Shown piece after piece: positions 492-5,047 of a stretch of DNA of 5,047 nucleotides. Under the pieces are notes generated by a model, which saw only the letters and a program-made list of their open reading frames with translations, was not told where the DNA came from and did not search any database. A program made the position numbers and the translations under genes. Position 1 is the stretch's first letter, and each line of letters opens with the position of its first letter. Origin of the DNA: Nitrospinae bacterium RIFCSPLOWO2_12_FULL_45_22 (GTDB taxonomy: Bacteria > 2-12-FULL-45-22); the NCBI GenBank assembly GCA_001803565.1, contig MHDQ01000191.1, positions 1 to 5,047 on the forward strand. Direction: 5' to 3'.

Positions 492-927
492 CTATCTCAC
501 CCTTAGGTGAAGATTCCCGGTTGGGTGGGTCTCTGGAAGGTCATCCTCAGGTCTTGCTTGAGGTGTTTCACCAGGTCTCTGGATACCCTGTTTCTTGCGT
601 ATCCCCCGGGATTTATTTGAATACTATCCGTAGTAGCGTACCATCTGGAATGATTTCTCCGGGATATGCTGGGTAATGGCTGCTATGAACTCTTCAGCCT
701 GGTACATCTGGAAATTCTTTTTATTCTTCCCCCGGCTCATCCTGGAATGGTAAATAACTGTGCCCGTCTCCTCGATATAGCTCATCTTCTCAAGGGAAAA
801 GGTATTGCGGATAATATACTGTGATAGAGCCTCTCTTAAAAAGATAAGTAAACTCTCATAAGCACAGTGGCATAGCTCTGTAAGTAAGTCTCTGTCATAT
901 TTAAAGTAGAGACGAGGCATAATTGGA
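492..927 (-). pseudogene. IS91-family transposase, C-terminal part (degraded)
   Basis: Reading from 927 downward, the peptide passes through IPIMPRLYFKYDRDLLTELC, a segment of the kind that follows the zinc-binding domain in IS91 transposases. It then jumps within FLREALSQYIIRNTFSLEKM to the region around the conserved YIIR tyrosine motif, and continues to ITQHIPEKSFQMVRYYG, a hallmark of the family's C-terminal part. The block normally lying between FLREAL and QYIIR, including the metal-binding HUH histidines, is absent; I estimate more than 100 residues lost, in frame. At 626-624 a TAG stands where family members usually have Trp (YYG-W-YSN). The frame then continues with YSNKSRGIRKKQG to a stop at 494-492. 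The C-terminal cysteine-containing tail of many relatives is also missing. The gene is non-functional. Confidence 0.85.
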
Positions 928-931
928 ATAC

Positions 932-948
932 CAGCAATAATTCACCCT
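932..948 (+). repeat. Left terminal inverted repeat of the MITE-like element
   Basis: CAGCAATAATTCACCCT, a perfect 17-bp inverse match to 1254-1270. The adjacent ATAC at 928-931 is the left copy of the target duplication. Confidence 0.88.
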
Positions 949-1253
949 CTTATCAATAAACATTAAAAAGGTGATAAGTTTTATAATATCAATGAATACA
1001 TCTCAGTGAATAGTTCAAAATGTATATTAAATTTATGCACTACCAATTTTTCTCAGGCATTCAGGAGGGAAAATCTTACCCAAAAACCCTATAAAAGAAG
1101 AAATTTAAGGCTCGGAAAATTAAGAAGTGCATTAATTTGATATACATAATATGTCACTCAAATAGGACAAAATAGTTACATTTTAAGCATAAATTATGTA
1201 TTAAATATGGTATCTGTTCAATACCCAAATAGTATCAACTGTATCTTAAATTA

Positions 1254-1270
1254 AGGGTGAATTATTGCTG
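1254..1270 (-). repeat. Right terminal inverted repeat of the MITE-like element
   Basis: AGGGTGAATTATTGCTG on the plus strand, the exact reverse complement of 932-948. It is followed by ATAC at 1271-1274, the right copy of the target duplication, after which transposase coding sequence resumes. Confidence 0.88.
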
Positions 1271-1561
1271 ATACTGAAAACATATTGACGGTGGGGGACA
1301 GGGTAGAGAATATTATGGTGCAAAAATTCTCCGAGCTGGACCACCTTTTTGGAGTGGCATGAAGGGCAAAACCAACGTCCTTTGCAACTAAAGGCAAGCA
1401 AATACTCTTCGCTGCAATCCTTGCAACGTACCCTTGCGAAACCATTCTTTAGATCACCACATTCCAAATACTCCCTCATTAAGCAAACGCCAGAACGGAG
1501 ATGCCTCAGGTTGTCTGGGATGAACTGTTACATGCTGATCCAATACCTTTCGGTTAATATC
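1271..1561 (-). pseudogene. IS91-family transposase, N-terminal zinc-binding part (degraded)
   Basis: The stretch from about 1480 to 1275 encodes MREYLECGDLKNGFARVRC followed by CKDCSEEYLLAFSCKGRWFC and CPSCHSKK. This is the Cys-rich zinc-binding domain (Transposase_zn_bd type) that opens IS91 transposases, and PVPHRQYVFSI follows it as expected. Upstream, in a different frame (1561 to about 1478), lies VTVHPRQPEASPFWRLLNE, which resembles the extreme N-terminus. The two frames meet at about 1475-1480, and roughly 30 residues usual between them are missing, so a deletion has caused a frameshift. No start codon with a ribosome binding site remains; a TAA at 1564-1562 precedes the N-terminal fragment. 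The coding sequence is cut at 1271 by the inserted element and resumes at 927. An open frame running on to a stop at 1246 reads into the insert and is not native. Confidence 0.85.
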
Positions 1562-1592: not shown

Positions 1593-3176
1593 CTAGAAAG
1601 TGTAAGTAAATTCAAGTTGAATTTCATCGAAATTGCGGTCTCCCCATCCCCACACATCATCATTATTGCCCGCATAACCTGTATATCCAATGTCTACATT
1701 GAAGGTATTCGTTATTTCATAATTCATTTTAGGTCCTGCAAATCTCCAGGAACCGCCATCATTATAGCCTACGGCACAACTAAAAGTGGCCCGGTCGTTC
1801 CAAAATGACTTAGAAATGCTGACAATACCATAAGTCTGCCATTTATCAAGGGTTTTACCCAGTTCGGTCTGGTCATTGTCATAGCCGAAATAGTTATAAA
1901 CTGCTACCCAGGTAGTAATGAGCCAATCAGCCGGACCTTTCACTAAGGGTGGTTTAAACGTTGTTTCCGCATTGAGTGCCCAGCGCATCTCATTTCTTTT
2001 CGTATACCCATCTTTGCCAGGGGCCAGAAATCCAGCGGCAATGTCCCGCGCGCTGGGTTGCTCAGTGCGGGTAGACCGATAGCGGTTAAGGAAATAAGCA
2101 AGCTCTCCCCGCAGGGTCCAATCCTTTCCCAGCATATGGGTTATCTTTTCCCCTGTTGCGCCCAGCATTGTCATACGCACAGGCTTAGGCTCGATTATTA
2201 TCCAGGGTTCCCCCCTGCCAAGGGCAGCAGTATCTATCCCTTTTATAAAATTATAAGGAGTTTTTTCCCATATATACAGGAAATAAAGTCCAAGATCCCA
2301 ACCCCCTTCGGTAAAGGTAGAAACTCTAGCCCCCCATTCGTGGTTTTTAAAGGAAGCTGAGGGTTTATCTGTTTTGAAAAATCTCAAATTTTTATAGCTA
2401 TTCCGGAAGATAAAGGCCGGAGATTGCAAATAGGGAGCCGGCGCATACAGACTCTCCTCATAATCAGGCATCCAGATTAATTCAAACTCAACATCTCCCA
2501 AAAAGGTATCTGCCAGATAATAAGAAATATCAGCCATCCATGCTGTCCTTCTGGTCAGCTCAGTATCATCCACGGCGGTGTCATGTAGTTCTCGAAAATC
2601 ATAACCATGGAGCTGATCAACAAAATGACCAATGTCAGTGGCTTTTCCCCATACGATTTGTTGCTTACCAATCCTAAATTCCCAATCTCCTTTTGACCAT
2701 AAGAAATATCCTTCCCGAAACCACCGCCTGAAACTATGGAAATACTCTAATTCCCTTTCCGTTCCCTCCCCTTTTCCCAAAGCCCCTCTTTGCCAATCGA
2801 AAGAGGAGTCGTAGAGATAATCCAATTGGCCGATGAGGGTCAGGGTGGGGCTGAAATAATACTTGTAGCGCAGTTCTCCCAGCCATTCAATTCGCTGAAA
2901 GTTCTGTTTGATGTGCAAATGACGTCCTCCCCCCAGCGGTGCATCACCCGTATTATGGAGCAGGATATCGCTTTCATTAATAAGATAACCCCTCAACTCT
3001 AAATTAGGAAAGGTTTGTGTTAGGGGCTCTATGATTAAATCCCGCGGGGGATTCATGGGAAAGGGATCCGCCAGGGCGGATCCTCGGAAAAAGAAAAGAG
3101 AAACAATCACTACAAATCCTATTTCTATCGTCCTCTCAGATAAGCTATATCTTCGGTCCATCCTTCCCCCTTTCAT
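1593..3176 (-). CDS. DUF1302-type outer-membrane beta-barrel protein
   Basis: This is an intact gene of 527 codons. The N-terminus has positive charges, a hydrophobic core at about residues 18-31 (IEIGFVVIVSLFFF) and a cleavage site after SALA (residue 36): a Sec signal peptide without a lipobox. The mature protein alternates aromatic and polar residues as in amphipathic beta-strands and ends in LEFTYTF, the terminal-Phe signal recognised by the BAM machinery. FRIGKQQIVWGKATD (about 167-181) and LIWMPDY (about 233-239) resemble conserved strands of the DUF1302 family. Known members are large outer-membrane barrels often encoded beside DUF1329/LolA-like proteins and RND/MMPL exporters. Their substrate is not established, but a role in moving hydrophobic compounds or lipids through the envelope is a common inference. 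The start at 3176 has GAGG four bases upstream; a second ATG at 3161 (codon 6) follows AAAGGGGGAAGG and is a fair alternative. The gene lies 79 bases after the LolA-like gene, with no promoter or terminator visible between them, so co-transcription is likely. Confidence 0.85.
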   Translation of the reverse strand: MKGGRMDRRYSLSERTIEIGFVVIVSLFFFRGSALADPFPMNPPRDLIIEPLTQTFPNLELRGYLINESDILLHNTGDAPLGGGRHLHIKQNFQRIEWLGELRYKYYFSPTLTLIGQLDYLYDSSFDWQRGALGKGEGTERELEYFHSFRRWFREGYFLWSKGDWEFRIGKQQIVWGKATDIGHFVDQLHGYDFRELHDTAVDDTELTRRTAWMADISYYLADTFLGDVEFELIWMPDYEESLYAPAPYLQSPAFIFRNSYKNLRFFKTDKPSASFKNHEWGARVSTFTEGGWDLGLYFLYIWEKTPYNFIKGIDTAALGRGEPWIIIEPKPVRMTMLGATGEKITHMLGKDWTLRGELAYFLNRYRSTRTEQPSARDIAAGFLAPGKDGYTKRNEMRWALNAETTFKPPLVKGPADWLITTWVAVYNYFGYDNDQTELGKTLDKWQTYGIVSISKSFWNDRATFSCAVGYNDGGSWRFAGPKMNYEITNTFNVDIGYTGYAGNNDDVWGWGDRNFDEIQLEFTYTF

Positions 3177-3869
3177 AGGTCCTCGTGTAGCTTAATTCAC
3201 CATACACTTCAGATTGAATTTGACATTCCGCTCGTAACGTGTAGATATCCAGTTCTTATTTACCTGCGGCCGTTATTTTCGTATTAACATTTTCCCAGAA
3301 TTCCCACCTAATTTGAGGTTCCGGCGGAAGATCCTCTTTTTTCTTGAAATAAGGAGGTGGATTTTTTGCCTTTCTCCAGATAAATTCTTTTCGGAGTTGC
3401 CCTTGTGAGAACCAGCGCTTGCTATAATCCTGATCAAATATCCAGTCATACCATTGATAAATGGTCCTTACATTGGTGCTGAGGGTTTTGGCGTTCCATT
3501 GGGACCACGCCCAATAATTCCATGGCTTTACCTGAACCCAGTCTATATCATATACTTTGAAGAGACGACCTTGCCGGTTAAACTGTTCTTCATGAACACT
3601 TCTGAAATCTTTATCTTCCACCCAGGTAACCCTCTTGCTCAAGTAATATTTCGGGTCTACTATATTGTGGCTCTCCACAACAAAGCATCTTTCCCCTTTT
3701 ATCGTATCCACACCCAAGATCTTATGGATCTCTTCCCACCAGGGTTCCCTCTCTTCAAGATCATCCCAGGTAATATCGCAAATACTGTAATTATCGTCTT
3801 TAATCTGGGGATTCTTTACCCTTACCCTTCTCAGCTTATTGCTCCATGACCAGGTCCAGCGGGCCTTTT

Positions 3870-3886
3870 GAACTCCCACGGAGTTC
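3870..3886 (-). promoter_or_regulatory. Perfect 17-nt hairpin 11 nt downstream of the in-frame TGA
   Basis: In the transcript, GAACTCC-GUG-GGAGUUC forms a perfect 7-bp stem with a 3-nt loop beginning with G. It starts exactly 11 nt after the UGA at 3900-3898, and the loop begins 18 nt after the UGA. The minimal SECIS element described for E. coli fdhF is a 17-nt stem-loop about 11 nt downstream of UGA, and general bacterial SECIS models require a G among the first loop bases. The loop here does not reproduce the E. coli GGUC loop or its bulged U. The structure is certain in sequence, but its function as a SECIS is speculative. Confidence 0.3.
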
Positions 3887-3897
3887 AGATAGGAGTA

Positions 3898-4365
3898 TCA
3901 AGTACCTCCCGAACCAACATATTCGGGCGGATAAGTATTTACGCCGATCATATTGCTGTGAAGCTCTCCCGGTTTTATCCCGTCCTGGGTAAGCAAGGCT
4001 TTTATATCCTTATAGTAAAATTTGAATTTACAGAGAAACTCCCTTATCCTTATATTTCCCATATTGTCTACCAGAGTTACTCGATCAAACCGGTCATTAT
4101 CGTGCCCCGACTCCTTACTGGCATAGGAATAGATCATCAATTCTAAAGCTGTATATCCATATTTTTCTATCTCTTCCTTTTCGGTCTGGGTCAATTCTTT
4201 TTTCCCCGGAGGCATTCTGGCGATCATGGGATCTCCAAAGACCTCCTTGGGATTCCGGTATTGATCTCCATTCGCAATAGAAGGAGCCCCTAGAACGACT
4301 ATCCCCAATAGAATAGAGATAAATACTACCCATTCCCTCTCCCGCATTCTCTTTAACTTGTTCAT
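3898..4365 (-). CDS. N-terminal 155 residues of the LolA-like protein (up to the TGA)
   Basis: This is the only part of the gene expected to be made if the TGA acts as a stop: signal peptide plus about 120 mature residues ending PPEYVGSGGT. It lacks the Trp-rich strands that form most of the LolA-like fold, so it is probably not functional alone. A longer frame upstream to 4602 exists, but it covers the intron's domains V and VI. The ATG at 4365 with its strong ribosome binding site is the right start. Confidence 0.6.
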   Translation of the reverse strand: MNKLKRMREREWVVFISILLGIVVLGAPSIANGDQYRNPKEVFGDPMIARMPPGKKELTQTEKEEIEKYGYTALELMIYSYASKESGHDNDRFDRVTLVDNMGNIRIREFLCKFKFYYKDIKALLTQDGIKPGELHSNMIGVNTYPPEYVGSGGT

Positions 4366-4371
4366 GATTTT

Positions 4372-4377
4372 CCTCCT
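4372..4377 (-). promoter_or_regulatory. Ribosome binding site of the LolA-like gene
   Basis: AGGAGG lies six bases before the ATG at 4365-4363, within GAAAGGAGGAAAATC. It fixes the start codon and lies only about 36 bases beyond the predicted intron 3' boundary. The short exon sequence between them (4412-4378) holds no recognisable promoter. Confidence 0.85.
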
Positions 4378-4412
4378 TTCTTCCAGACGAGCGTGCAAAG
4401 GCAACAAGCTGA

Positions 4413-4532
4413 GTCGAGTAGACCGGTTTCTCCCGATGCTACAGGTTGAGGTTTGTTTTCTCCGTTTTCTGCCTGGTTTCTCGGCAGTGCCACAATATTT
4501 CAACCATACATCAGTTGGCCCCAACCCCTCAC
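4413..4532 (-). ncRNA. Group II intron domain VI, extended, with branch-point A
   Basis: Starting with GTGAGGGG right after domain V and ending GGTCTACTCGAC, the basal stem pairs GAG with CTC. That leaves an unpaired A at 4419, seven bases from the 3' end, where the lariat branch point is expected. The roughly 120-nt length exceeds the usual 35-45 nt. The extra sequence still folds into a coherent arm: TTGG/CCGG, CTGATG (4514-4509) with CATCGG (4438-4433), and GGTTGA (4505-4500) with TCAACC (4449-4444). A terminal hairpin CTGCC/GGCAG (4487-4483 with 4473-4469) caps it. GAGAAACC occurs twice (4482-4475 and 4432-4425). Confidence 0.65.
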
Positions 4533-4533
4533 A

Positions 4534-4566
4534 GAACCGGACTTGCGGGATTACCGCATCCGGCTC
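4534..4566 (-). ncRNA. Group II intron domain V (catalytic hairpin)
   Basis: A 33-nt hairpin begins with GAGCCGGA and ends with TCCGGTTC, which pair as the lower stem, carrying the AGC catalytic triad near its 5' side. TGCGG pairs with CCGCA as the upper stem with a small TAAT(C) loop, and a 2-nt AG bulge separates the stems on the 3' side, as in known domain V structures. This is the most conserved part of group II introns and looks intact here. Confidence 0.9.
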
Positions 4567-4577
4567 TTCAAGCAGGC

Positions 4578-5047
4578 TCACATCGTAGCCGCGTAGATCC
4601 AACCATAGCCCTTCAAGATTCTGGGTTTGGGTAAGGGATAGCGAAGCAGTAAAGCTTCAAATTCTGCCCAGTTGAAGCTTTTCCTTTGACTGCGCCGATT
4701 GAGCCACTTGAACCACATCCTCTTTATCGCATAGACAAATTTGTTCAAGGTTGCGTAGTTCCCCGCAAATCCAAAATAGTTGTAGTACCCCTTGAGGACT
4801 CGGCATATATGCTGGTATAGTTCCCGGAATGGAAGCACATTGCGCAATTTCCTGAGTTTATCATTCAAGTCGACCAGTTTTCTTCTCATACGCTTACCAA
4901 TCGTCTTGCGACCCAGTCTTATCCCGCCTCTTCGGCTCCGGGTCATATAGTGAGTAAACCCAAGAAAGTCTAATGTGCTCGGCTTACCCCCTGTAAGCTT
5001 GCTCCTCCGGTATGCATCCTTGCCAAACTATATCAGTCTGCTCTTCT
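4578..5047 (-). pseudogene. ltrA: Group II intron reverse transcriptase/maturase, C-terminal part, with in-frame TAG
   Basis: The frame reads KSRLI-TAG-FGKDAYRRSKLT, then LDFLGFTHYMTRSRRGG, then KRMRRKLVDLNDKLRKLRNV and a long stretch including LKGYYNYFGFAGNY, KWLNRRSQRKSF and LLRYPLPKPRI. This is the end of the reverse-transcriptase thumb followed by the maturase-specific domain X of LtrA-type proteins, which binds the intron RNA and aids splicing. Related proteins usually read RLIEFGR where this one has TAG (5030-5028), so a Glu codon (GAG) seems to have become TAG. The downstream part has an ATG at 4946, but no ribosome binding site makes it a credible start. The polymerase domains lie outside the window. 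The stop at 4580-4578 is 11 bases before domain V, a normal arrangement. No HNH endonuclease domain follows domain X in the usual C-terminal position. Confidence 0.85.

Follow-up and report, generated by a model that had tools for sequence, protein, structure and literature searches.

A dead IS91-like transposase gene of a Nitrospinae bacterium was found interrupted by a 339-bp segment, and this raised the questions of what the segment was, from what it derived and how it reached its present site. All coordinates without a contig name refer to the window, i.e., the whole 5,047-nt stretch of DNA analyzed here. The segment was very probably a MITE that arose from an insertion sequence (IS) by loss of the transposase gene, was moved in trans, and was inserted at ATAC within the IS91-like remnant. 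The element was delimited by the following features:

932–1270, plus strand: MITE of 339 bp, recognized by its terminal inverted repeats (TIRs), target site duplication (TSD), empty site, and colinearity with the IS ends, and oriented with its left end as the 5′ (upstream) end of the putative parent IS
932–948, plus strand: left TIR CAGCAATAATTCACCCT, with similarity to the IS 5′ ends extending to about 962
1254–1270, minus strand: right TIR, with similarity to the IS 3′ end reaching back to about 1237
928–931, no strand: left copy of the TSD ATAC, present as a single ATAC at the empty site on contig C282 (see below)
1271–1274, no strand: right copy of the TSD ATAC, likewise single at the C282 empty site

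The TIRs were perfect over 17 bp, and the element length, the TIRs, and the 4-bp ATAC duplication reported in an earlier note on this DNA all proved exact to the base. That note had also described the interior as non-coding and AT-rich, which agreed with the G+C content of 27% inside the element versus 44% across the remaining window and with a longest open frame of 57 aa; its further statement that the interior bore no trace of a transposase was right for coding sequence but wrong for the 5′ leader of a transposase gene, which the interior matched (see below). The element had a strong predicted fold (z −6.0), largely because of its terminal and internal inverted repeats.

Bacterial MITEs, e.g., Chunjie of Geobacter uraniireducens and QMITE1/2 of Coxiella, have been reviewed, and they are usually AT-rich with a strong fold (PMC10969869). 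The element, of a known and ordinary kind, fitted the standard picture of bacterial MITEs (PMC10969869): it shared with these elements (i) a size below 500 bp, (ii) the absence of a gene, here including any transposase gene, (iii) AT richness, (iv) TIRs (4–30 bp in bacterial MITEs) and flanking duplications (PMC10969869), (v) a stable stem-loop in the transcript (here a predicted fold), and (vi) ends common to an IS, the IS in this case being represented by DDE-transposase-bearing copies that were all decayed. It differed from them in its very low copy number (one full and one partial copy) and in its location within a dead gene instead of an intergenic region.

The interrupted gene was recognized from two parts lying on either side of the element:

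1271–1479, minus strand: 5′ part of the IS91/ISCR-like transposase remnant, with a zinc-binding domain (PF14319, 2.3e-16)
624–931, minus strand: 3′ part of the IS91-like transposase remnant, with the C-terminal part of Y2_Tnp (PF04986, 1.1e-10)

The zinc-binding and Y2 transposase domains of the IS91/ISCR family were both present, as a deleted remnant from which much of the catalytic middle was missing. With the element and one ATAC taken out, an unbroken minus-strand frame RQYVFSIPIMPRLYF was obtained, as the earlier note had claimed, and the same frame could be read in the host genome (G000) itself, where C282 carried a second dead copy of the IS91-like gene that was uninterrupted at the insertion point. 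C282 positions 23416 to 23445 corresponded to window positions 902 to 931, and C282 positions 23442 to 23616 to window positions 1271 to 1445, the four common bases being the single ATAC; the empty site C282:23416-23616 was continuous, composed of 26 bp of left flank, ATAC, and 171 bp of right flank, and its translation RQYVFSIPIMPRLYF was identical to that of the window once the element was left out. The boundaries and the duplication were not a product of chance, because this empty site fixed each of them independently; it gave direct evidence of where the element starts and stops, of the 4-bp duplication, and of the sequence of events, with the IS91 copy arriving first and the element second. 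These data supported the presence of a 339-bp non-autonomous element whose insertion into the remnant of an IS91-like gene was precise to the single base.

The order of these two insertions stood as originally proposed, and the deletions may have preceded or followed the insertion of the element; the IS91-like copies found had deletions that differed from copy to copy. The reading that the 339 bp had belonged to the IS91-like element from the outset, which the earlier note had named as an argument against mobility, was refuted by the C282 paralogue, which lacked the 339 bp and ran uninterrupted and in frame across the site, and this reading retained next to no credibility. The IS91/ISCR family served as the insertion target only, being dead, internally deleted, and unrelated to the MITE. 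Dead and variously deleted IS91-like copies were located in G000 at C282:10001-10252, C282:23203-23616, C74:68-402, and C265:154-208; in those of C282 and C74, the deletion joints contained a shared additional stretch (translated as SWRHSGFSVHNG), which was possibly another repeat.

A further argument against mobility had been the lack of any other copy in the genome, and one such copy was found: a truncated second copy of 85 bp on C164, which displayed 89% identity to the left 81 bp of the MITE and had an intact left end and a missing right half. The host genome (85% complete) contained this partial copy and the one complete copy, with no further complete copies, so that the proposed family was thinly represented in this host. 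The element was not found in 40 other genomes, an absence that says little because the host phylum was represented by only two genomes in the collection. There was no DNA match to the element in plasmids or phages, no match in viral contigs to the transposase fragment or to the 16-mer, and no match in plasmids to the transposase fragments or to a 573-aa relative (see below); the literature searched contained no instance of the 15-bp end.

The 17-mer TIR was searched against 257 Gb of genomes, and 33 exact matches were obtained versus about 30 expected by chance. Twenty-nine of them, having nothing evident in common beyond the 17 bp, were set aside; the other four shared more, namely L007, L011, and L018 from Geobacter-type MAGs and L014 from a Bacillota MAG. 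Same-ended but decayed insertion sequences were recognized in two Geobacter-type MAGs and one Bacillota MAG: (i) in L011, L014, and L018, the end recurred in inverted orientation, so that broken transposase pieces were enclosed in elements of 691 to 1093 bp, and (ii) L060, a further copy reached via protein, had paired ends enclosing transposase remnants. The transposase remnant of L014 matched DDE_Tnp_1 at 2.2e-10. The target duplications were GAGAAA in L018, AAGTT in L060, and TTAAA in L014 joined with L097 (two contigs with an identical 141-bp end, which probably represent opposite sides of a single insertion), and none was seen in L011; the duplication lengths in the family were 4, 5, 5, and 6 bp. 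The earlier note had recommended looking for a full-length IS that shared these ends, and such an IS was found in other bacteria as decayed copies; there was no intact autonomous copy in any genome searched, including 141 of the Geobacter-type order and 97 of the class of the Bacillota MAG.

The MITE and L014 had colinear BLAST matches at element positions 1–31, about 90–110, about 195–215, and 306–339, the last of these pairing the right end of the MITE with the L014 IS 3′ end at 88% identity over 34 bp. The inner matching stretches were two inverted copies of RTGTATAYNNAATTNNTGCACT, and three internal features were delineated accordingly:

1020–1041, plus strand: internal motif 1, ATGTATATTAAATTTATGCACT, at element position 89 and in the IS leaders at 87 to 91
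1126–1147, minus strand: internal motif 2, the inverse of motif 1, with which it forms a convergent pair that also occurred 5′ of the L014, L007, and L011 transposases
1151–1165, plus strand: possible relic of a transposase start, ATG TCA CTC AAA TAG (IS: ATG AAT ATC TCA CTC AAC)

The first motif began at position 89 in the MITE versus 87 in L014, 91 in L007, and 90 in L011, and the second motif began 106 to 154 bp after the first, being located shortly 5′ of the transposase start in L007. A genome scan for the motif identified convergent pairs in G000, G041, G042, and G043 and little else, against a background of zero to one per genome, and the two motifs never occurred together when the MITE interior was shuffled 20,000 times. 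When the 28 bp internal to the TIR were subjected to a shuffle test, the comparison with C164 was the only significant one, and the case for descent therefore rests on the BLAST matches plus the motif pair. Judged from these sequence similarities, the MITE most plausibly consists of the 5′ leader and the 3′ end of an L014-type IS from which the gene was removed; the resemblance of 1151–1165 to a transposase start is suggestive only. The convergent internal motifs could be promoter, operator, repressor, or transposase-binding sites, and the conserved pair offers a defined starting point for determining which sequences besides the ends such elements require.

The events envisaged would be as follows: (i) the parent IS would have lost its transposase gene, while about 220 bp at its 5′ end, including the leader, and no fewer than 34 bp at its 3′ end were retained; (ii) an intact transposase of the parent type would have acted in trans on the CAGCAATAATTCACCC ends and moved the resulting MITE; and (iii) insertion at ATAC within the IS91-like transposase remnant would have occurred via 4-bp staggered cuts. 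We infer the direction of descent (from IS to MITE), the cut-and-insert chemistry, and the mobilization in trans, in which, as is known for MITEs, the transposase would bind the ends. Some observations weighed against this history: the single complete copy, the lack of an intact autonomous copy in the genomes searched, and the unequal duplication lengths in the family, with none in L011. A further one was that the nearest transposase relative in the host was a truncated fragment at C68 with 35% identity and no recognizable ends; with this fragment as the closest host relative and no parent detected in intact form, the element may no longer be mobile.

A competing history, to which a real but clearly smaller chance was given, is that of a one-off IS copy with an internal deletion, which was either deleted in place after insertion or moved once and never spread as a MITE. 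Just one complete and one truncated copy in the host genome would be in keeping with it, as would the deleted copies of 691 to 730 bp in other hosts, in-place deletion being common in the parent IS. The C164 copy, with its 89% match to the left 81 bp of the MITE, speaks for a second copy of the element but stops before the deletion joint, and for this reason a one-off deleted IS stays within the histories to be considered beside that of a mobile MITE.

It was judged unlikely that a host IS1634-type transposase recognizing nearly the same ends moved the MITE, in which case the similarity of the leader would reflect older descent. This possibility drew on C200, where an IS1634-like transposase fragment (E 7e-13) was followed about 80 bp on by CAGCAATAATTCACCT in the right orientation, and on IS1634 duplications of 5 to 6 bp (PMC2266710), near the 4 to 6 bp of the family. 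Beyond the TIR, however, C200 had no detectable similarity to the MITE, the full-length IS1634 gene at C122 had nearby inverted repeats TGTTCACCCC instead of MITE-type ends, and a 16-mer with one mismatch would have about 0.1 chance occurrences in the host genome by our own estimate. The CAGCAATAATTCACCT end itself, at G000:C200:5618-5633 (L055), may be a related end or a chance occurrence. The gene at G000:C122:13842-15110 (L082) encoded a nearly full IS1634-type transposase with one stop and had the inverted repeats TGTTCACCCC near its ends; it was ruled out as the parent since its ends differed. Another 16-mer on C77, with two mismatches, was judged to be due to chance.

The parent IS was compared with the known families. 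The IS remnants carried a DDE_Tnp_1 domain with weak similarity to IS1380, IS4, IS1634, and IS701, and the longer, more distant transposase relatives had an N-terminal HTH_32 region ahead of the DDE domain. IS1380 was the best-scoring model, the 573-aa relative in L075 reaching 55.8 bits where the cut-off lies at 180, and the transposase fragments of the parent IS themselves scored lower; the IS1634 model gave 26 to 32 bits against a cut-off of 100; and the score with the IS701 model was also below its cut-off, while relatives had 5- and 6-bp duplications. No NCBIfam IS model matched the parent IS group above its cut-off, and the group lay between IS1380, IS4, IS1634, and IS701; judged against these models, it may be uncurated. 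Duplications of 4 bp for IS701, 4 to 5 bp for ISH3, and 5 to 6 bp for IS1634 are recorded among the IS4-related families (PMC2266710), and those of the parent family (4 to 6 bp) resembled all three. The parent IS differed from the IS1380/IS4/IS1634/IS701 group in scoring below the NCBIfam cut-offs, in the HTH_32 region lying N-terminal to the DDE domain in its relatives, and in its CAGCAATAATTCACCC ends. As a tentative proposal, held with less than even confidence, the element and its relatives would constitute an IS group outside the current curated models (HTH plus DDE_Tnp_1, CAGCAATAATTCACCC ends, and 4- to 6-bp duplications) that crosses phyla and whose MITEs retain two convergent 22-bp motifs with constant spacing from the end.

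The nested insertion, its empty site, and the likely parent were all visible without a close relative genome, and the mobile elements of the host lineage are tied by them to an IS group common to Geobacter-type and Bacillota bacteria.

Two further observations concerned the surroundings of the element in the window. A LolA-like (PF17131) outer-membrane-type gene on the minus strand (3256–3879 plus 3898–4602) was split by an in-frame TGA and adjoined a DUF1302 gene (1593–3176). Also on the minus strand, the window edge carried an RF00029 group II intron domain together with a GIIM fragment of the maturase-specific type (4413–4568 plus 4578–4946).
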